Of a stretch of DNA of 64,000 nucleotides, positions 6,231 to 38,701 are shown in pieces (positions within the stretch are counted from its first letter, which is position 1; the number at the start of each line of letters is the position of its first letter). Both the position numbers and the translations under genes were made by a program. The notes beneath the pieces are model-generated. The model searched no databases and had not been told where the DNA came from. It worked only from the letters and a program-made list of their open reading frames with translations. Location: contig CAILCG010000024.1 in assembly GCA_903832665.1 (NCBI GenBank), positions 62,001-126,000 of the forward strand, in the 5' to 3' direction. This stretch comes from an uncultured Methanomicrobiales archaeon. Lineage in GTDB: Archaea > Halobacteriota > Methanomicrobia > Methanomicrobiales > Methanospirillaceae.

Positions 6231-6494
6231 TCCGTCGGAGAACCCCTTTCCATGATACCTGGATGCCTCCGCGAGAATTCTGGTACAACGGAGCCCGCAA
6301 CGTTGCCCGTTGTACCTCTTTTCCCAAAAGTATCAGAATGGGAGGTCATAATTCGCAAAAACGCGGAAACGGGCCCGGAATTTACCACGGTTTGTCGACG
6401 GGAATAATTGCGGTCATATTTAGCCATGTTACGATGGCAAAAGTCAGGGCAGGATGATGTTTATGGGGTTGGGGGTTCCGGCTGGGGGTCGGAT
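6231..6494. repeat. 264-bp dispersed element, copy 2
   Basis: This copy has the longest hairpin of the three: GGTACAACGG and CCGTTGTACC pair over 10 bases around a 15-base loop. Differences from copy 1 are scattered substitutions. Downstream, 6495-6542 continues to match sequence after copy 3 (a TCATGGCATCTTTACCGGCG motif) and runs straight into SDR f, so element and SDR may be parts of one larger unit. Confidence 0.85.
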
Positions 6495-6542
6495 CTGAGT
6501 TTTTGGCACACTCATCTGTCATGGCATCTTTACCGGCGTTGC

Positions 6543-6620
6543 TCAGTGCCCTCGGTTCCGGAGATAAGACGACGGGTCCTCCGGTACTAAACCGGTTCCG
6601 GCCCCGCCCCCCACGTATGC
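6543..6620. repeat. SDR f
   Basis: It reads CTCAGTGCCCTCGGTTCCGG, AAGACGACGGGTCCTCCGG and ACCGGTTCCGGCCCCGCCCC. It ends about 10 bases past the 3' end of the convergent DJ-1-like gene. Confidence 0.65.
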
Positions 6621-6630
6621 TCAGGAATCC

Positions 6631-7260
6631 CTACCGTTGCGTCAGGGATCCCATCAGGGCATAGAAATATTCGGGCTGCCGGGTGGCATAAAGCCCGTGC
6701 CAGGCTTCGAGCGTTGCAGGTGACATGATATCCAGGCTCCGGAATACCTGGTACGCGAACTCTACTGGTGCAAGTCCGCTTGCGGTGATGAGGTTGCCGT
6801 CAGTTACTGCGGGTTCGTTCACATAATGATTATCGCCCCGGTAATTCGGGCAGAACATTTTCAGTGCGGCAGCATCGTTGCTGGTATGCGGGCGTTTGTC
6901 CAGCAGGCCGGCGTTTGCGAGGCCAAGTGTAGCACCGCAGATAGCGGCGACAAGTATTCCTTCATCAAGCAACCGGCCTGCCACCTTCAGTGCGGGCGCC
7001 TGCGCCGGATCAAGCCAGGTATCTGCTCCCGGCAGCACGAGCACATCGCCGGGGACGGGGCGGATATCCTTAATGAGAACTTCCGGCGTCAGATGCAGTC
7101 CGCCCATCGTGGTGACGGGATCTAAGGTACTGCCGCAGAGTACAACGGAATACCGGAGTGCCGGATCTTTCAGGAACCGCCCGGAACGGAGCTCGGCCAG
7201 GACATGGCCCGGCTCCCAGTCGGCAAAAGTATCGAGGACATAGAGATAGAGAGTGCGCAT
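6631..7260 (-). CDS. DJ-1/PfpI family protein
   Basis: This is a 209-residue class I glutamine amidotransferase-like protein. The nucleophile elbow is AAICGATLGLA with Cys108, preceded by the strand PGDVLVLPGADTW. DJ-1/PfpI members include chaperones, glyoxalases and peptidases, so the reaction cannot be assigned. The length and start at ATG 7260 fit the family. It is a single gene on the minus strand, facing the hicBA pair across an SDR. Confidence 0.85.
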   Translation of the reverse strand: MRTLYLYVLDTFADWEPGHVLAELRSGRFLKDPALRYSVVLCGSTLDPVTTMGGLHLTPEVLIKDIRPVPGDVLVLPGADTWLDPAQAPALKVAGRLLDEGILVAAICGATLGLANAGLLDKRPHTSNDAAALKMFCPNYRGDNHYVNEPAVTDGNLITASGLAPVEFAYQVFRSLDIMSPATLEAWHGLYATRQPEYFYALMGSLTQR

Positions 7261-7326
7261 GATTTACCGTTACAGATAATTGGACGGGGTTGAAATACCT
7301 TACTCTTTTTGTTTCATTCTCCATGC

Positions 7327-7430
7327 GCTTCCCCGGTTCCACCGGGTCCTGCAATTGACGACAGCCCCCTCCAACCCCGCTTCGGATCCGCTCATTCAGT
7401 ACCTGCCCGGTCCCGCTCCAACGCATGCGG
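7327..7430. repeat. SDR g
   Basis: It has CCCGGTTCCACCGGGTCC, TGCAATTGACGACAG, GGATCCGCTCATTCAGTACC and TGCCCGGTCCCGCTCC, then a GCATGCGG end. It occupies most of the divergent gap between the DJ-1-like gene and hicB, so promoters of both genes must lie around it. Confidence 0.7.
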
Positions 7431-7508
7431 CCGAAACGGAAGATGGTCGGATCGAACCATTGATCCCAGAGGAAAAATTGTATACTCTTTCGTGAATAAT
7501 GAGTACCT

Positions 7509-7733
7509 ATGCAATATACGGTGGTTCTCGAACCCCAGGAAGAAGGCGGTTTCACGGTCCAGTGCGTGGAGATCCCCGGGGCGGTCAGCCAGGGTGAGAC
7601 CCGGGAAGAAGCGCTCGCCAATATCAAAGAAGCAATAGAACTTGTTCTCGAAGTCCAGCGCGAAGAACTTCACAGGAAGACTCCTGCACACCACCGCGAA
7701 ATCTCCAAGGTCGAAGTGGCGGATGTCGCATAA
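7509..7733 (+). CDS. hicB: HicB antitoxin
   Basis: This 74-residue protein has the HicB fold: MQYTVVLEPQEEGGFTVQCV, then EIPGAVSQGETREEALANIK and a helix EAIELVLEVQREEL. HicB binds HicA and masks its RNase site; longer HicB proteins also bind DNA, but no such domain is seen here. The start is ATG 7509. It overlaps hicA by 11 bases. The antitoxin-first order is the reverse of many hicAB loci but common in archaea. Confidence 0.9.
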   Translation: MQYTVVLEPQEEGGFTVQCVEIPGAVSQGETREEALANIKEAIELVLEVQREELHRKTPAHHREISKVEVADVA

Positions 7734-7944
7734 GCTCCCGGTCATTGCCGGTGAAGATCTGGTCAAGTATCTTGCGAAACATGGATTCGAGATCAAGCGG
7801 CAGTCCGCGAGTCACGTTGTCGTGCAGAAAGAATGGCGGGTCTTCTCGGTCCCCCTCCACCGGGAACTCAAGAAGGGGACCTTGATTGGGATCCTCAAAC
7901 AGGCCGGGATTGAGGTCGAGGATTTCAAACAGGGATTCCGGTAA
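7723..7944 (+). CDS. hicA: HicA toxin
   Basis: This 73-residue protein starts at ATG 7723 inside the end of hicB. It has the double-stranded RNA-binding-like HicA fold, with GEDLVKYLAKHGFEIKRQ, the catalytic His segment ASHVVVQ, and the conserved ELKKGTLIGILKQAGI near the C-terminus. HicA cleaves mRNA. A longer frame open from 7642 overlaps hicB and is not family-like. All signature residues are present, so the pair should be functional. Confidence 0.9.
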   Translation: MSHKLPVIAGEDLVKYLAKHGFEIKRQSASHVVVQKEWRVFSVPLHRELKKGTLIGILKQAGIEVEDFKQGFR

Positions 7945-29639: not shown

Positions 29640-29987
29640 TTATTCGATCGTTTCCATCCGGACTGCGGGTTCAAGGATCGTGATGAGCCGGGGGATGTCC
29701 AGGCTCACAGTATCCCAGACCTCGTCAAGGTCAACTTTTCCATAGGAATGAATGAGCATGTCCCGCATACGTGCCATTGCAGACCATTCGATCGATGTGA
29801 ACCGGTCGAGAGTCTCCGGGGAGAGCCGTTTTGAGACCTCACCGATCACTTCAAGGCAGCGGATGACCGCATACTGGCACTGGCGATCGGCTGCGAAAGA
29901 TTCCCGGGAATGATCCCGGGTAAATTCCCGTGCGTCCTTTGCCATGAGGAGAATATCAAGCAGGTACGCATCATCGTCACGCACCAT
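29640..29987 (-). CDS. HepT-type HEPN RNase toxin
   Basis: This intact HepT has 115 residues, with YAVIRCLEVIGEVSKRLSPE and WSAMARMRDMLIHSYGKVD. The RX4H catalytic motif is RDMLIH, with the following Tyr (SY) that is the AMPylation target in this family. It overlaps the upstream nucleotidyltransferase by 11 bases. Unlike the copy at 2784-3132, all expected residues are present. Confidence 0.92.
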   Translation of the reverse strand: MVRDDDAYLLDILLMAKDAREFTRDHSRESFAADRQCQYAVIRCLEVIGEVSKRLSPETLDRFTSIEWSAMARMRDMLIHSYGKVDLDEVWDTVSLDIPRLITILEPAVRMETIE

Positions 29988-30288
29988 ACACTTTCTCCAT
30001 GGATGAGAGGATACTTCTTTTGCGGATATAGTTCCGGCTCTGTTCCACAGCCTGCCGTGTCATGAGATCAATGCGACGGCCGAATAGCTCTTCGAGCTCC
30101 GCTTCCATCTTTGCGAGCTGGATGAGGGTGTGACGTGAACCGGCCGGGAAATCCACGATGATATCGATGTCGCTGTCGGGCCGGAATCTTCTGGTGGTGA
30201 CTGAACCAAATACCTGGAGTTCACTGATATTCCATGCCTTGCAGAACTCCCCGATCTGTTTTTGCCGGCTCCGGATAAGTGCGTTCAT
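29977..30288 (-). CDS. MNT-type nucleotidyltransferase antitoxin
   Basis: This 103-residue protein has VFGSVTTRRFRPDSDIDIIV, the GSX10DXD catalytic motif, and a third acidic position in FGRRIDLMTRQAV. It should AMPylate HepT. It is the first gene of the pair, starting at ATG 30288. The module sits at the left edge of the AT-rich island. Confidence 0.92.
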   Translation of the reverse strand: MNALIRSRQKQIGEFCKAWNISELQVFGSVTTRRFRPDSDIDIIVDFPAGSRHTLIQLAKMEAELEELFGRRIDLMTRQAVEQSRNYIRKRSILSSMEKVYGA

Positions 30289-30550: not shown

Positions 30551-30741
30551 ATCATTCAGATCGCGTGAGAGGCTGACTGCATAAAAAGAGAACGAATTTC
30601 TTCATCTGTCGTTTGTCTTTCATTCGATTTGATCGATGGATTATCCATTGAGGCACGGATCACCGCTGGGTAAATCACAGGATCTCGAACCAGCGCTCCG
30701 GTGCCACGCCGTACGATGCCAGCACAACAACCAGTCCTGCT

Positions 30742-30772
30742 GGTCCGACAGACGATGCGGTAAAAAAGAGCA
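30742..30772 (-). pseudogene. 31-bp inverted fragment of the ABC-2 permease
   Basis: On the minus strand this equals 16308-16338 exactly, coding for MLFFTASSVGP in both. Homology to the helicase begins just after, at about 30771. The identity ends sharply on both sides. Confidence 0.6.
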
Positions 30773-31766
30773 TAGAGTAGATCGTATCGGGAATACTAAT
30801 AGAATTACGGTTTATAATTTCTTCCCCGATGAGGATAGTGAGAGTCTCCTCAAACTCCTTGAGAAATTGCAGAATAAAATAAAGGATATTGCCACGATTG
30901 TCGGAAAGGAAAATGGCATTCTCAGCGGGGATGAAGAAGTAGATGCCAAAACCATTGGTGAGCGAATCAAGGAAATCCGGAGATTTGATGATACTATTAA
31001 ACTCGAAGACGAGGCAAAAAATCCGATTTTCAATATCACCGGTGAAGACAAAGAGGCAGTTATCCGGTTTAAATTAAGAAACCAGATCCGTGACTGGAAA
31101 CTTACGAAAAATGACTTCAGGGAATATTCGAACGTTCCTTACTCTGTTGTCAGAAATGGTAAGACCGGTATTTTCTCTCTCTATCGAATTTTTGATAAAA
31201 AAGATGGGCATAAATTCCAAGATGTCCTGCTTCGGTTTGATCCAATGAATAACTCGGTTTCTGAGATGAATCCGTTGGATCTCTCTATTCAACCGGCGGA
31301 TCCCGGTATAGCAAAAGCTGGTGTTGATCGTTCTGTTGATCTTGAAACCGGTCTGGAACAGATTCAATCGTCTTTTGAGGACAAATTCGCAACACTCAAA
31401 GGAGGATACTCCGATCTTGAGATGTATCCGAATTTCAAGATGTATAAAATCCAGGAAAAAATTGTACACCGGTTATCTACTCTCCAGAAACAAAAGTCGC
31501 TGAATGATGAACTGACTAAATATAAACGAGCGATTTCTGAATTAAAAGGATTATATGCAAATATTTTCTTGAGTCAGACGGATGCTGTTGAATTGGGTAA
31601 ACGCTTTGATGATAAGCCGGTCATGGCTATTGAAGTCGAGGAACTCATCAGGATTTTGCGGGAATTCAGGAAAGACGTGATCCAGAAAAATCCTGATTAT
31701 CAGCAATTCCTCAGGACGGAAAGGAATATTGATTATAAACAGATTTGCTGGGGGGCATTTGTATGA
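30773..31766 (+). pseudogene. C-terminal part of an SNF2-family helicase
   Basis: About 330 residues remain. They open at HRVDRIGN, which is the motif VI region of SNF2 helicases, and continue VYNFFPDEDSESLLKLLEKL and a C-terminal region of about 280 residues rich in Lys and Asp. All helicase motifs upstream are gone; the sequence before 30772 is unrelated. An ATG at 30636 would open a chimeric frame of 376 residues with a non-homologous start. The stop overlaps the methylase start as ATGA, keeping operon coupling. It may encode a C-terminal adaptor or simply be a remnant. Confidence 0.75.
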
Positions 31767-34700
31767 TGTCAATAAAACGAGACGATATCGCTTCGATTCG
31801 TAGTCTTGATAATATTGTAGCGATATTCTCGGAGAAAGGATTTACCGAATACAAAAAAGAGAGTGATACCGAAATCCGGATTAAAATTTCAGATGAGCCG
31901 ACATTTCTCTCGGTTTTTCAGATTAATGGGGTGGCTGATGTACCTCGACATCAAAAATATTTGGATGTCAAGACTGAATATCTGATATTGGTTACTCATG
32001 ACTTCGAAAATCTTATTTTTGTGAAAAAAGAATTCACCAAACTGGATACTGAGAGATTCCGGAAATTACGGATAAATAAATCAAAAATCACCAATACGAG
32101 TCTGAACAAGATCAATGGCCTTAATTTCAATGATGTTACCTTGTTCGACAATTTGTTTGATCGCAAGGAAGTTGTCAAGCAGTTCTATGATGAATTCATC
32201 AAATACCGTAAACTGCTTATTGACAATATCTCAGGTTTGGATACAGAAATTGAAAAAGAGCGGTATGCACAAATTCTCGTTGACCGCCTTATTTTCTTAT
32301 ATTTTATCCAGAAAAAGAATTTACTTGATGAAAATGAGAATTATCTCTCTCAAAAACTTAAAGAGAACAGAGGGGATTTTTTTAATAATTTCCTTTGTCT
32401 GCTATTTTTCAAGGGATTGTCTATTAAAGGATTCAAGGATCGCAAATTAGGTGATATTCCCTATCTGAACGGAGGTTTATTCCGGCAGAAAAAATGCGAA
32501 CAGGTAAAAATATCCATCCCGGATGAAGTCTTTGAAACAATACTTATCTTTTTTGACTCGTGGAACTGGTATGTGGATGAGCGGGCGGATTTTGGCGAAG
32601 AGAAAAGTATCAGCCCGGAGATACTTGGTCATATCTTTGAAAAGACTGTCAACCAGAAGGAAAGTGGAGCATATTATACTCCCGAACTTATCACGTCCTA
32701 TATCTCTGAAACCACTATTTATCCCGTATGCCTCAATAAAATGAACAGCCGGTTCAAACAAAACTATTCAACAATTAAAGAGCTCTTTGAAAAGGACTCC
32801 CCGGAAGAGATAGCATACCTTTACAACGAAGTCCTGAAAAAATTATCTGTTCTCGATAACGCCTGTGGTTCAGGAGCATTTTTGATCGCTGCTCAGGATG
32901 TCCTGATCGATATCTATTTCCAGACTATTTTCAGGTTGAAAAGTGATCCTGTCTTCATTGAAGAAATCAAGGAACATAACCGGAACCATGAACTTAAACT
33001 CGATCTGAACCTGGCATCAGCACAGGAATTCCACGACAATTCTCGGTGGAGTTATTACATCAAGAGGATGATTATCACCAATAATCTCTACGGTGTGGAC
33101 ATCGAAGAAGGAGCCGGGGAGATCGGGAAGTTACGATTATGGCTATCGATGATAGCTCATGTCCCGGAAAATATTTCTTTAGTCGAGCCTTTACCCAACA
33201 TCGAATATAACATCAGATGCGGTAACAGCCTTATCGGATATACTTCTGCAACCCAGATCGTGGATGAGAAAGATTTACCAAAAAAGCCAAAAAAGAAAAT
33301 CGTCTGGAACAAATTATCCGGCAACCAGATCAGCTTGGATACCTATCAGCCCGATTCGATCTTCCATCTCTATTACGATCGAAACCAGCTCATCCGGCAA
33401 TACAAAGATGCAGATGATTCAAAGAAAGCTGCCGATCTCAAGGATACGATTGATCAAAAAACCTACGAATACAATCAGGTCCTGAATAAGAAATTATTTG
33501 ATGAGATTGTTTTTGAAAAAGGGTTGGAGATTACTGAAGATTCCTTTGTTGATCTTAAACCGTTCCATTGGATTATGGAATTTTCAGATATTTTTGAGTG
33601 GGGGGGATTTGATATTATTGTCGGAAATCCTCCTTATTTACGGATCCAGACACTGAATAAATGTGCCGAAGAAGAAGTTGAATATTATAAAGATCAATAC
33701 CAAGTTGCGAAGAAGGGAAATTATGATATTTACGTAGTGTTTGTTGAAAGAAGCATTGATTTACTAAATAAAAATGGAATTTTAGGCTATATCCTCCCAC
33801 ATAAATTTTTCATTGCGAAGTACGGCGAACCACTTCGAAAATTTATTGCAGGGGGAAAACTCCTAAAAAAGATAGTTCACTTCGGACATCAGCAAGTTTT
33901 CGTTGGTGCAACAACGTATACCTGCCTTTTATTTTTAGGGAAATCTGTAACAGATGAATTTTGTTTTACAAAAATTGATAGTATCAAAATATGGAGTATA
34001 ACGAAGACCGCTGAATCTGCGATTCTAGGGTCTGAAGACATTTCAGAAAAAGAATGGTATTTCGTAATTAGGCCTGATGCAATAGTCTTTAAAAAATTAA
34101 TAGCAATGCCGAACAAACTCGGGAATATCATCAAACTGTTTGTGGGATTACAAACTAGCGCGGATCCAATTTATATTTTAAAGCCCCTGGCGGTAAATCC
34201 CCAATATTCAATAGTGAAATCTAAATTATTTGAAAATGAAGACATTCAAATCGAAACTTCAATTTTGCACCCACTTCTTAAAGGTGCAGAAATCATCAGA
34301 TACGAAAAACCAGGCTACGAAAATGTCTTGATTTTTCCTTATTACATTCAATCAAGTCAAGCCGTTCCTATCAATATTCATGAAATGCAATCGAAATATC
34401 CGTTTGCCGTTACTTATTTAGAAAAAAATAAGGATGCATTGATTGAACGACCAAAAACAAGTGAGAAGAATTGGTGGTTGTTTCCCTATCCTAAGAATTT
34501 GACACTTTTTGAAAGACCTAAAATTTTGTGTCAAGTATTGAGTACCCGGGGAAACTTTACTTTAGATGCAAAGGGTGAATTTTATTTTGTAGGTGGCGGT
34601 ACTGCGGGTGGCTATGCAATATATGATGAGAAAGAGGACGTAGACTATTTAAAATTTTTATTAGGAATATTAAATTCATCTCTGACGACCTTTTTTGTTT

Positions 34701-35020
34701 CAAAGGTTGGATCTGGATTTCAATCTGACTTTTACGCTTTCGGAAAAAGTTCTCTTGAAATTTTCCCCCTGCCAAAAATTAACTTGAAAAATATTGACGA
34801 TAAAAAACGATATTTTGAGATGATTTCTAGTGTTACATCGACGCTCAATTACCATAAACAATTGCAGGAAATTCAATCTGAAAATGAAAAGATCGAATTG
34901 ACCAAAAAAATTATTGAAATTGATAAATCCATAGACAAACTGGTATACGACCTTTATGGGTTGACGGTTGAGGAAATTGCAATCATAGAGGATGGACTCA
35001 GCCGAAAAGGAAAATGTTGA
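31763..35020 (+). CDS. Eco57I-type DNA adenine methylase / restriction-modification protein
   Basis: This 1085-residue protein starts at ATG 31763, overlapping the helicase stop. The N-terminal 280 residues are a helical/target-binding part. Motif I is DNACGSGAF (residues 365-373) and motif IV is NPPY (622-625), which identifies an N6-adenine methylase of the Eco57I/BREX PglX-like type. The C-terminal part (about 780-1085) resembles a target-recognition domain, with STRGNFTLDAKGEFYFVGGG. No PD-(D/E)XK nuclease motif is obvious. A host methylase without its own nuclease fits a defence system in which partners cut or degrade. Base composition is AT-rich. Confidence 0.92.
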   Translation: MMSIKRDDIASIRSLDNIVAIFSEKGFTEYKKESDTEIRIKISDEPTFLSVFQINGVADVPRHQKYLDVKTEYLILVTHDFENLIFVKKEFTKLDTERFRKLRINKSKITNTSLNKINGLNFNDVTLFDNLFDRKEVVKQFYDEFIKYRKLLIDNISGLDTEIEKERYAQILVDRLIFLYFIQKKNLLDENENYLSQKLKENRGDFFNNFLCLLFFKGLSIKGFKDRKLGDIPYLNGGLFRQKKCEQVKISIPDEVFETILIFFDSWNWYVDERADFGEEKSISPEILGHIFEKTVNQKESGAYYTPELITSYISETTIYPVCLNKMNSRFKQNYSTIKELFEKDSPEEIAYLYNEVLKKLSVLDNACGSGAFLIAAQDVLIDIYFQTIFRLKSDPVFIEEIKEHNRNHELKLDLNLASAQEFHDNSRWSYYIKRMIITNNLYGVDIEEGAGEIGKLRLWLSMIAHVPENISLVEPLPNIEYNIRCGNSLIGYTSATQIVDEKDLPKKPKKKIVWNKLSGNQISLDTYQPDSIFHLYYDRNQLIRQYKDADDSKKAADLKDTIDQKTYEYNQVLNKKLFDEIVFEKGLEITEDSFVDLKPFHWIMEFSDIFEWGGFDIIVGNPPYLRIQTLNKCAEEEVEYYKDQYQVAKKGNYDIYVVFVERSIDLLNKNGILGYILPHKFFIAKYGEPLRKFIAGGKLLKKIVHFGHQQVFVGATTYTCLLFLGKSVTDEFCFTKIDSIKIWSITKTAESAILGSEDISEKEWYFVIRPDAIVFKKLIAMPNKLGNIIKLFVGLQTSADPIYILKPLAVNPQYSIVKSKLFENEDIQIETSILHPLLKGAEIIRYEKPGYENVLIFPYYIQSSQAVPINIHEMQSKYPFAVTYLEKNKDALIERPKTSEKNWWLFPYPKNLTLFERPKILCQVLSTRGNFTLDAKGEFYFVGGGTAGGYAIYDEKEDVDYLKFLLGILNSSLTTFFVSKVGSGFQSDFYAFGKSSLEIFPLPKINLKNIDDKKRYFEMISSVTSTLNYHKQLQEIQSENEKIELTKKIIEIDKSIDKLVYDLYGLTVEEIAIIEDGLSRKGKC

Positions 35021-35033
35021 CGGTGAGTGAAAA

Positions 35034-35279
35034 ATGGCAAAAGGCAAAAAAATTTCAGCAAAGATAAAAGAACCCGAAAAACCCGTCTCTTTTAAAGATA
35101 TGAATTCCATGGCTCGGGAAGAATTTATCCGGTTAATATCAGCAGACGCTCTTCTGACTCCCGCATGGAAAGACGCAATAACTCCTCTGGTTTCGGAAAA
35201 AATCCCTGATGACCTTTCTCCCTTACAAATACTGATCGATGGTGTGCCTCATGTTGAGACTGAAACAACTCAAGGTTAA
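35034..35279 (+). CDS. Small acidic/basic partner protein
   Basis: This 81-residue protein starts at ATG 35034 behind GGTGAG, 13 bases after the methylase stop. It has a Lys-rich N-terminus (MAKGKKISAKIKEPEKP) and an acidic, helical remainder (EEFIRLISADALLTPAWKDA). Its last codons overlap the ATPase start by about 30 bases, so it is part of the operon. No domain is recognised. It could be a scaffold or antitoxin-like partner of the ATPase-HEPN protein. Confidence 0.7.
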   Translation: MAKGKKISAKIKEPEKPVSFKDMNSMAREEFIRLISADALLTPAWKDAITPLVSEKIPDDLSPLQILIDGVPHVETETTQG

Positions 35280-37647
35280 AAATTGTCGTGGAATCAGGGA
35301 CGGCCCAGATATCAATTTTGAAGCCGGAGGGCTGCTGTTATGTGGAGACAACGGCACGGGAAAAAGTTCGTATATTGATGCCATCGAGAAAAATCTCACC
35401 GGAAAGTGTTCATCCATCGAAACGGGAATACAGGGAATCTCATGGAATAAACACGGTGCCCATATCAAATGTAAGGATGAACCTGAAATTGAACTTACCC
35501 TCACCGATGGGAATAAAGAATTTATCATAGACAATGAAATGGAGCTGCAGAAATTTCCTAATAATATGATCACTTTTTTGGATTCTGCAAGGGTGCATCC
35601 GTTCATTTTACGGCGGAAAACTTTGCTCGATTTCATTGATGCAAAACCCGTAGATCGATACAAAGCCATTGAGGGCTTTTTGAAATTAGATCAGTTCAAG
35701 GAATTTGAAACGAAATTAAAAGAATTGGGAAACGATTGCCAGGAAAAATATTCTGGTGCCGTGACAAAGAAAGACGAAAACATACGGGCCCTTCGTTTAC
35801 GATTAAATTTATCCCCCCAATCTCCCGTCGATGTTGAAACCTGCATAAAACAGGCAAATCAGTTATTAAAACAGGTTGGCATATCCCCCCTAAAAACCCT
35901 TGAGGATATCCCCGAACGGTTGAAAAAAATTGAAGATAGTATTGCTCCCTTGAACCGGGATGAAAGTCTCCAGAAATGGACGAATCTCCTAACAACTCTT
36001 CAGGAAATTCAGAAGAATGATGTAGTTACCGAAGCAGGTCAGAATTATTCTGATAGCCGTCAGGAACTTTTAAAGAAACAAGATGTAATCAAAGGGCATT
36101 TCTACGCGGAGATTCTTGAAAAGGGCCTTGCATGGATACAGGAGGATGCATTAGATCGTTGTCCGCTCTGTAATAATACCATTAATGCTGATGAGGTATC
36201 TCGTTATGTTCAACAAAAAATTTCAGAAAACAACGAAATTACTGCTCTGACTAAAGATCAGAATCAACGATGGAAAACATTTTTGTCCATCCTTACAAAA
36301 AATCGGGATGTTCTCATAAAAATCAAAACACAGTCATTTGAGGGGCTGGAGTCGGAACTACTTGAAAAACTGGATCTCCTCATCAATTCCTACAACAATA
36401 TTTCCCAAAATCATCAGGAACTAACCGAACCAGCACTTATTATCAGCGATATAGCGGCGCTCAATCAAATCAAAACAGATGAAATTCTGCAGGAATTCAA
36501 TGAGAAAATCACAATAATCTGCAGCCAGTTTTCAGATAATGAACGGTATCGTCATCTTTTCAATACAAAAACTGCTTTGGATGCACTCGCGTTACATATG
36601 AAAAATATCGAGAGATGTGATGTGGAAATACAGCATTTTGAAAATTCATTCGGGCAGATGCAGGTCCTTGTAAAATATGCTGAACAAGCACGAAAAACTG
36701 CGGTTCAAAGTCTAATGGTTACCATCACCGACATCGCTGACTCATATTTCCAAAAAATACATCCCGCTGAGACTATAGGAAAACCTCAGTTGACTATTAC
36801 AGACCGCGGGGCCGGGAGTGTCATATTAACGAGCACCTTTTATGGTAAAGTGGAGGATCCCCGTGGCCATTACAGCGAAGGTCACATCGATACCCTCGGC
36901 CTCTGTCTGTTCCTTGCCATCTGCCGGGCACATCATCAGCAGGTTCCGGAATTTTCACTGTTAATTCTCGATGATGTGTTACACAGTGTTGATGGTAATC
37001 ACCGGAGAAGAACGGCAGAACTGATTTTTCAGGAATTCGGAGATCACCAGATAATAATCACTACCCATGATCGGTTGTGGTTTGAGATTTTGAAGACGGT
37101 CTCACGTTCTAACGGAGGCAATAAAAAATTCAGAGAATACCAGATTGCTGATTGGACCCTCGAAGAAGGCCCGATTTTTGGTGATCATTTATCCGAATAT
37201 GATTGGTTAATCTCTGCCGAAGGATTGAAGTCCCAGCCAGCTGATCGTGTCATTAAATCCGGGCGATTACTCGAAGAAATACTCCAGAATTTATGCGATT
37301 CTTTAACGATCAGTGTGCCCTTTAAGATTCGAGGGGATTATACTATCGATCCTCTCTGGTCTTCTTTTTACCAGAAAGCAAAAAAGCAAAATGAGTTTTA
37401 TGTAAAGGGAAAAAAATGTCTTGATTCTATCGACAGCTTACGTCAGATACGAAACTGGGTGGGGGCTCATTATAATGAATGGGCTAAAACACTGACAGCG
37501 AATGAATCAAAAGAATTTGCTAAATCTGTGATTGATCTTAGAAATTTTGTGTATTGTGAAAAGTGTAATCAATTCATCGTTCGGATCCCTCAACTTGACG
37601 GAATATGGTCGTGTAAGGGAGAACATTTACACTATAAAAAAGATTAG
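35251..37647 (+). CDS. SMC/Rad50-like ATPase with C-terminal HEPN RNase domain
   Basis: The 798-residue protein starts at ATG 35251 (MLRLKQLKVKNCRGI); ATG 35239 is also possible. Walker A GDNGTGKSS (residues 32-40), a coiled coil with a Rad50-like zinc-hook CPLC (304-307), the signature EGHIDTLGL near 547, Walker B LLILDD (570-575) and an H-loop TTHD follow. Residues about 640-765 look like a HEPN domain: RLLEEILQNLCDSL, then RNWVGAH (Arg734 to His740), matching RN-x4-H. A zinc pair CEKC (769-772) follows near the C-terminus. The likely role is sensing DNA and firing an RNase; this is an inference. Confidence 0.85.
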   Translation: MLRLKQLKVKNCRGIRDGPDINFEAGGLLLCGDNGTGKSSYIDAIEKNLTGKCSSIETGIQGISWNKHGAHIKCKDEPEIELTLTDGNKEFIIDNEMELQKFPNNMITFLDSARVHPFILRRKTLLDFIDAKPVDRYKAIEGFLKLDQFKEFETKLKELGNDCQEKYSGAVTKKDENIRALRLRLNLSPQSPVDVETCIKQANQLLKQVGISPLKTLEDIPERLKKIEDSIAPLNRDESLQKWTNLLTTLQEIQKNDVVTEAGQNYSDSRQELLKKQDVIKGHFYAEILEKGLAWIQEDALDRCPLCNNTINADEVSRYVQQKISENNEITALTKDQNQRWKTFLSILTKNRDVLIKIKTQSFEGLESELLEKLDLLINSYNNISQNHQELTEPALIISDIAALNQIKTDEILQEFNEKITIICSQFSDNERYRHLFNTKTALDALALHMKNIERCDVEIQHFENSFGQMQVLVKYAEQARKTAVQSLMVTITDIADSYFQKIHPAETIGKPQLTITDRGAGSVILTSTFYGKVEDPRGHYSEGHIDTLGLCLFLAICRAHHQQVPEFSLLILDDVLHSVDGNHRRRTAELIFQEFGDHQIIITTHDRLWFEILKTVSRSNGGNKKFREYQIADWTLEEGPIFGDHLSEYDWLISAEGLKSQPADRVIKSGRLLEEILQNLCDSLTISVPFKIRGDYTIDPLWSSFYQKAKKQNEFYVKGKKCLDSIDSLRQIRNWVGAHYNEWAKTLTANESKEFAKSVIDLRNFVYCEKCNQFIVRIPQLDGIWSCKGEHLHYKKD

Positions 37648-37654
37648 TATTCAC

Positions 37655-38701
37655 TCAATTTATTTGAATATCAGGTGCATTCAAACAAGAATCAATTTCT
37701 TTTTGTATTTTTGCTTTATCTGGGATATTTGCGTTCATGATTAATCTTCGTCCATCAATTCTGATTTCAAATAAATTCGGATTTAAGCCTTTATTATCGA
37801 TTTTATTTGGGCGTTGCCATTCCTGCAAGGAATCCGATAATTTTAGTAAAAATGCAAGCGGTGCTTTTTTCCGATCGATTCGTTTACCGTATGGTAAATA
37901 TTTCGGGCTTATATCATGAATATAGATCGCCGCACATGCAGGTATGATATCTTCTTCGAAATATTTCTGATTACAGTCAATATTCGTATATGGTTCGAGT
38001 ATTTTTTCAAATTTTCGTTCTGGATTATACTTCTGGTAAAAAAGATCAATACTGTTTAAACCGGTTAATGCGCTCATTGCTCTGTGACGTATTGATCCAG
38101 TTTCAATCATTTCTTCGTATTCGGATTGTATGGGGATATCAAGATCCCATCCATCCAAGCATTTCTGAATAAGTGGAAGCGATTTTTTGCTATTGCAAAG
38201 ATTTTCAATACCGGTCGGACGAATCTGGAAATGAAAGACAGGGGAGATATTTTTTATGTGCTTATCACGAATGCAGTTGTTCCTGTCTGAATATTTTTTT
38301 AACATTTCCTGGGCGATTTTCACTGGATAACCAATATCATGGAATAAACATGCAATCTTCCAAGTGAATGGCCTTATTTCAACTCCTTGTGGTAAAAGGA
38401 AAGATTCGCTAAGATATACCCCTAAAATATATGTCTGTAATGTATGCAATACGTGATCTCTGGATTCGATATCGATATTTCCGAGAACCGGTTCAAGCTT
38501 AGACAAATCATACAGATGATCTGCAATTTGGCTCTTCCCATGTTCAGCAAGGATATTTTTAATTATGTGAAGACCATCGTTCAGTCTGTACTCATAATTA
38601 TTATTGTAATCCAAGAATTTTTTGATTCGGGTTTCCTCATCCAGTCCATAATCCTGCAAATTGTCATGAATTTCCTGTAGAATAAACGAATTTATATCCA
38701 T
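37655..38701 (-). CDS. HD-domain phosphohydrolase
   Basis: This 348-residue protein has SRDHVLHTLQTYILGVY (first His), FTWKIACLFHDIGYPV (HD pair), AAIYIHDISPKY and AFLLKLSDSLQEWQRP (last Asp), the HD metal-binding order. A RBS GAGGAG lies before ATG 38701. HD proteins hydrolyse nucleotides or cyclic nucleotides. It faces the methylase/ATPase operon tail-to-tail with an 8-base gap. Its base composition matches the island. A defence role such as nucleotide depletion is a guess. Confidence 0.85.
   Translation of the reverse strand: MDINSFILQEIHDNLQDYGLDEETRIKKFLDYNNNYEYRLNDGLHIIKNILAEHGKSQIADHLYDLSKLEPVLGNIDIESRDHVLHTLQTYILGVYLSESFLLPQGVEIRPFTWKIACLFHDIGYPVKIAQEMLKKYSDRNNCIRDKHIKNISPVFHFQIRPTGIENLCNSKKSLPLIQKCLDGWDLDIPIQSEYEEMIETGSIRHRAMSALTGLNSIDLFYQKYNPERKFEKILEPYTNIDCNQKYFEEDIIPACAAIYIHDISPKYLPYGKRIDRKKAPLAFLLKLSDSLQEWQRPNKIDNKGLNPNLFEIRIDGRRLIMNANIPDKAKIQKEIDSCLNAPDIQIN

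Follow-up and report, generated by a model that had tools for sequence, protein, structure and literature searches.

The window, i.e. the whole stretch of 64,000 nucleotides that was analysed, contains on its forward strand a gene for an ABC ATPase with a C-terminal HEPN-type domain, preceded by a small acidic open reading frame (ORF) and a methyltransferase gene. The features of this locus are listed below in window coordinates, with residue numbers referring to the 798 aa ATPase-HEPN protein.

30636-31766, + strand: Snf2-type helicase, C-terminal remnant (C3a139/BrxHII-like), upstream of the methyltransferase gene
31745-35020, + strand: Eco57I-type N6 methyltransferase (type IIG / PglX-like), separated by 13 nt from the small ORF that follows
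35034-35279, + strand: small acidic partner ORF, 81 aa, sharing 29 nt with the start of the ATPase gene; conserved in the three order-level relatives
35251-37647, + strand: ABC ATPase (Rad50/SMC-like, CPLC hook) with C-terminal HEPN-type domain and zinc ribbon, 798 aa (ORF and full-length relatives)
35344-35367, + strand: Walker A GDNGTGKS, residues 32-39 (sequence and alignment of relatives)
36160-36171, + strand: zinc-hook CPLC, residues 304-307; C304, P305 and C307 invariant in 19 members
36871-36900, + strand: ABC signature variant YSEGHIDTLG, residues 541-550 (SEGHID 542-547), replacing LSGGQ/LSEGE
36958-36993, + strand: Walker B LLILDDVLHSVD, residues 570-581, with Asp in the position of the catalytic Glu, as in RloC (DDPxSS)
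37060-37071, + strand: H-loop TTHD, residues 604-607 (sequence and relatives)
37192-37551, + strand: HEPN-type domain, about residues 648-767 (AlphaFold model, VIA-align, weak Pfam hits)
37261-37275, + strand: Gly671-x3-Glu675; Arg-x3-Glu in 32 of 44 members and in RloC (alignment)
37450-37470, + strand: RNWVGAH, residues 734-740; H740 invariant, R734 only together with Gly671 (alignment)
37555-37626, + strand: C-terminal zinc ribbon; C769 and C772 invariant, C788, fourth ligand variable C/H (alignment)

The ATPase-HEPN frame is uninterrupted from the ATG at 35251 to the stop codon at 37647. Starting at an alternative ATG, 35239, would lengthen the protein by four residues; the start at 35251 is favoured by the relatives. 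All motifs named in the original prediction (Walker A, CPLC hook, Walker B, H-loop and RNWVGAH) are present and, like SEGHID, invariant or nearly so in relatives of 43-61% identity, which are conserved over their whole length including the C-terminal part. Residues without any variation across 19 diverse family members include those of Walker A, CPxC, SE, LDD and TH; E675, H740, C769 and C772 of the C-terminal part are likewise invariant. The ATPase head is matched by the Pfam models SMC_N and AAA_23, and the last 160 residues are without any Pfam match above the cut-off. In the full-length AlphaFold model, which is poor (pLDDT 58.7, pTM 0.42) and was used for this feature only, CPLC sits between long predicted helices, which makes a zinc hook likely at this position. 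The C-terminal ribbon is a putative second zinc-binding element, and no counterpart of it is found in seven aligned RloC proteins.

The nature of the C-terminal domain was assessed by profile, structure and motif comparisons. Even at E 10, Pfam returns only three weak matches for the window domain (E 0.04-0.12), namely DUF4145, HEPN_AbiU2 and HEPN_AbiA_CTD, and DUF4145 is counted as HEPN (PMC3710099). An AlphaFold model of residues 626-798 alone, built from three sequences, is of middling confidence (pLDDT 67.5, core 77-86, pTM 0.69). The structure search that had been proposed for this region gave a divided result. With VIA-align, the best matches of the model include HEPN or HepT structures: 3o10 (sacsin HEPN; Z 7.0, rmsd 3.5 over 115), 6m6u (HepT of MntA-HepT; Z 5.9, rmsd 3.4 over 109) and the HEPN toxin entries 7ae8, 7ae6, 7ae9 and 7ae2 (Z 5.3-5.6), so that six such entries are found within the top 14 of 502 chains at Z 5.3-7.0, a range (below 8, or below about 13 for helical bundles) that may reflect a shared arrangement only. 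Foldseek, on the other hand, found nothing significant for the domain model in the PDB (best E 0.99).

The HEPN motif range is R-x4-6-H (PMC3710099). RNWVGAH, read as R-N-x4-H or R-x5-H, lies within this range, with the nearly invariant N735 as the polar residue after the arginine. The upstream helix carries the acidic residue E675, kept as Glu in 43 and as Asp in one of the 44 scorable members, i.e. those in which both sites, 671 and 734, are available; most of these are only about 20-25% identical to the window protein. The chance of an R-N-x4-H in a 150-residue stretch is estimated at below 1%; judged from the alignment, the conservation of H740 and E675 is better evidence than this estimate. 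In a profile alignment that begins at the ABC signature, continues over Walker B and the H-loop and extends to the R-x3-E helix, the family matches RloC at a probability of 98.4% (E 4.9e-15), and YSEGHIDTLG aligns to the LSEGE of RloC. The C-terminal profile alone aligns weakly to RloC (probability 9.7%). Model matches, motif, acidic residue and relationship to RloC together make it very probable that the C-terminal domain is a HEPN domain. The predicted fusion of an SMC/Rad50-like ABC ATPase to such a domain in ORF 35251-37647 is thus supported by motifs, model, weak Pfam matches and VIA-align.

Relatives of the protein are rare and scattered. In the class of the window genome it is encoded by 3 of 199 other sampled genomes (four counting the window's own), which provide the relatives of 43-61% identity. 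Of 392 genomes of the phylum, 22 contain the family according to whole-genome searches; the counts for two classes within it are 7 of 237 and 13 of 341 (the three sets overlap). This is a patchy distribution, as is usual for defence genes. A tblastn search of plasmids yields 36 records, mainly from Alphaproteobacteria, Bacteroidota and haloarchaea; in 13 of them a single place accounts for 80% or more of the query, with an identity of about 22-25%. One full-length member is found on viral contigs (L023, the same as L063), and none in GenBank phages. Two further candidates, L006 and L007, are not members, one being a RecF-like protein and one another ATPase. A housekeeping role, in which a Rad50/RecF-type repair ATPase carries an incidental C-terminal extension, would agree with the matches of the head to Rad50 and RecF models. 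This explanation is very improbable given the rarity of the family, its location on plasmids and often within defence islands, and the lack of any match to the Mre11 model among the nine scanned window proteins.

In two haloarchaeal members (L098 near 3459, L099 near 3435), the protein stops directly after the ATPase at a '...GP' linker, and no HEPN domain is seen in the sequence downstream. In a third member, L048, an in-frame TAA lies near the HEPN border and the HEPN domain is intact behind it. Such losses at the domain border are suggestive of a costly effector domain.

The combination of an ABC ATPase and a HEPN domain is a known architecture, that of the anticodon nucleases RloC and PrrC (PMC2610378, PMC3710099), both of which have been placed in the HEPN superfamily (PMC3710099). 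The original prediction is correct in outline and partly supported, yet the architecture that it described was already known. For comparison, seven RloC-type proteins from plasmids were used. Two scanned RloC-type proteins match AAA_13 and PDC-S06 over their full length and PrrC in part. AAA_13, in contrast, is absent for the window protein and under the cut-off for family member L045, and PDC-S06 matches the window protein with 26.8 bits over 302-621 only, versus 862-920 for the RloC-type proteins L065 and L069. The family, found in archaea, Alphaproteobacteria and Bacteroidota, is distinct from RloC and PrrC. No full-length model of it is present in Pfam, NCBIfam or PADLOC, and no RNA cleavage or phage data for it were found.

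The C-termini of RloC-type proteins mostly read M/L-R-R/N-x2-E ... N-x2-S-H. In RloC of G. kaustophilus, both tRNA cleavage and toxicity depend on the triad Arg692-Glu696-His737 (PMC2610378). The same R-x3-E...His triad is found in 31 of the 44 scorable members, and in one more with Asp in place of Glu; the window protein has Gly671, E675 and H740. The two arginine positions exclude each other. All 32 members with Arg671 lack an arginine before the conserved Asn, and the remaining 12 combine R734 with Gly671, the pairing being exact in 12 of 12. One member of the Arg671 group, L094, has an arginine six residues before the His that does not adjoin the conserved Asn. The RN-x4-H motif, proposed originally as the catalytic pattern, hence stands as far as its fit to R-x4-6-H and the invariant H740 are concerned, but only 12 of 44 members have its arginine, which the other 32 lack.

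The 12 members with R734 form three groups. Two of these, the window clade and the Bacteroidota plasmids, have R-x5-H, and the third, an archaeal set, has R-x4-H. When the tree is built from the ATPase part alone and RloC serves as outgroup, the arginine state requires three changes, at least two of them by well supported branches. A single clade of the R734 state, i.e. one origin, is rejected at p-AU 0.0029, a value to be read with caution as the group was named after the data had been seen and some branches are long. Only two independent pairs are available, too few for a sign test, so that the exchange is a strong pattern rather than statistical proof. Since RloC carries the Arg671 state, this state is probably the ancestral one. 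As R-x3-E...H is the catalytic triad of RloC and PrrC, the catalytic arginine apparently moved between helices at least two times, and the simple reading of the alignment is that both arginines would serve one active site.

The absence of R734 in 32 of 44 members could also be taken to mean that the HEPN domain is non-catalytic and serves in RNA or protein binding or in dimerisation, with the Rad50-like part acting together with another nuclease, all the more as a binding function is assumed for HEPN domains that lack the motif (PMC3710099). This is unlikely, because Glu (Asp in one case) and His are kept and the absent R734 is matched by an arginine four residues before the Glu, as in RloC and PrrC, which is more than a mere binding domain would need.

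The ATPase-HEPN gene is accompanied by a small upstream gene and is thus not the self-contained effector that had been suggested. In every scanned member whose 5' end is intact and for which upstream DNA is available, a short ORF ends within the first ATPase codons or directly before them. Exceptions to the count are L049 (truncated), L060 (contig edge) and L048, for which only the interrupted ATPase frame was returned. The upstream ORFs encode 54-114 aa with a median net charge of -7, and 1 of 33 is not acidic; six-frame ORF picking may invent short ORFs, and in the plasmids most of them are annotated genes. Using held-out profiles, recognisable homology among the small ORFs is limited to part of the alpha/halo/f8 group. 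In the three clades with R734, the ORFs in this slot look unrelated, so that these are also the clades whose small partner is without recognisable homology to the others. Going by its position only, the small protein may be a silencer or antitoxin of the ATPase-HEPN protein.

A small partner gene next to an SMC-like head is also expected if the protein is a Lamassu-like sensor resembling LmuB, with the effector encoded elsewhere and the small partner as the LmuC analogue, and LmuB profiles are indeed among the best PADLOC matches over the head. These matches stop before the HEPN part, however, none of the scanned small ORFs matched a PADLOC model, and no recurring LmuA-type effector is seen beside the family, with no match to LmuA or LmuC among the scanned neighbouring ORFs of the window. 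A Lamassu-like arrangement is therefore even less likely than a non-catalytic HEPN domain.

In the window, the methyltransferase gene is probably part of the same operon as the small ORF and the ATPase-HEPN gene. Only the C-terminal part of the Snf2-type helicase is left, which points to a partly decayed restriction or BREX-like system. Close to the break, the remnant contains RVDRIGNTN, which is similar to motif VI. A HepT/MntA-type toxin-antitoxin pair (HEPN RNase and nucleotidyltransferase) is encoded at 29640-30288 on the minus strand, at a distance of about 5 kb to the ABC-HEPN gene; a phmmer search with this HepT found no PDB relatives. Convergent with the ABC-HEPN gene, an HD-domain protein just below the Pfam cut-off and without a PADLOC match is encoded at 37655-38701 (minus strand).

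Among other members, the genomic neighborhood includes type I R-M-like, DUF262 (GmrSD-like), AbiE, DarT, patatin/ThiF, DUF499 and DndH-like genes, and CBASS-type neighbours also occur beside some of them. The family is often but not always located in defence islands; L075 and L076, as read by eye, adjoin nitrogenase-like genes. A recurring arrangement is found in archaea. According to PADLOC models, three loci (L072, L077 and L085) share the order brxC, pglX, small ORF, ABC-HEPN, pglZ, brxL, and the annotation of a Halorhabdus plasmid gives pglX, small ORF, ABC-HEPN, pglZ. These four archaeal loci fall on different branches of the family tree. In L072, a dGTPase-like gene (6476-7903, minus strand) lies between ABC-HEPN and pglZ. 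That HEPN proteins of the RloC family occur in Pgl operons was already described in 2013 (PMC3710099). Term searches of the main text of a 2026 BREX survey (PMC12839542) gave no ABC-HEPN hook protein and no pglX-pglZ slot.

Taken together, the locus probably encodes a DNA-sensing, abortive ABC-HEPN endoribonuclease module that is related to RloC and PrrC and encoded with a small, usually acidic partner. In the proposed mechanism, the C-terminal HEPN domain would be kept inactive in the resting cell by the head together with the hook, and probably by the small partner as well. Mutations in the hook of RloC are known to raise its activity (PMC2610378). The Rad50-like head and the zinc-hook coiled coil would sense the state of DNA, such as ends, damage or a jammed restriction or BREX complex, and this sensing would work by binding or hydrolysing ATP. 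Activation would lead to the pairing of two HEPN domains, and the Glu675/Arg734/His740 site would cut host RNA, most likely tRNA, whereupon translation would stop and the infection would be aborted.

More tentatively, the whole may be seen as a previously undescribed two-gene antiviral system of archaea and bacteria, made up of a small protein and an ABC-hook-HEPN RNase. In this reading the catalytic arginine would have moved at least twice between the RloC/PrrC position, R-x3-E, and the classical HEPN position, RN-x3/4-H, the two types of active site in the superfamily would be interchangeable states of a single site, and part of the family would be a fixed BREX accessory between pglX and pglZ. 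As far as the searched libraries and papers show, the unnamed family, its partner gene, the BREX slot and the arginine exchange are new. A single family with both arginine placements links the RloC/PrrC anticodon nucleases to the classical HEPN RNases and would account for the deviation of the RloC/PrrC triad from the usual HEPN motif. An arginine swap between positions 734 and 671 offers a direct test of interchangeability. The module itself, with its partner gene and recurring BREX slot, is an antiviral candidate that is not named in the searched defence library.

Among the known systems, Lamassu LmuB shares the SMC-like head with hook and the small neighbour, but its matches do not cover the HEPN domain. 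The backup effectors described for BREX (PMC12839542) are likewise nuclease modules inside BREX loci and likely a second line of defence. HEPN toxins such as HepT and the sacsin HEPN domain resemble the window clade in R-N-x(n)-H and in a similar helical arrangement; HepT, however, is a toxin paired with a nucleotidyltransferase, whereas the window HEPN domain is fused to a Rad50-like ATPase. The anticodon nuclease PrrC also combines an ABC ATPase with a HEPN nuclease within restriction loci, but it has no zinc-hook insert, reaches only about half the size and is held silent by an R-M enzyme of type Ic (PMC2610378). RloC (Pfam AAA_13, PADLOC PDC-S06) shares with the family a Rad50-like ABC head, interrupted by a coiled coil that carries a CxxC hook, and a C-terminal HEPN nuclease domain with catalytic Glu and His; with most family members it also has R-x3-E...N-x3-H in common. 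The family differs from RloC in the lack of a full-length AAA_13 or PDC-S06 match, in its SEGHxD signature, zinc ribbon and small partner gene and, in the window clade, in an arginine that is located in R-N-x4-H instead of R-x3-E.
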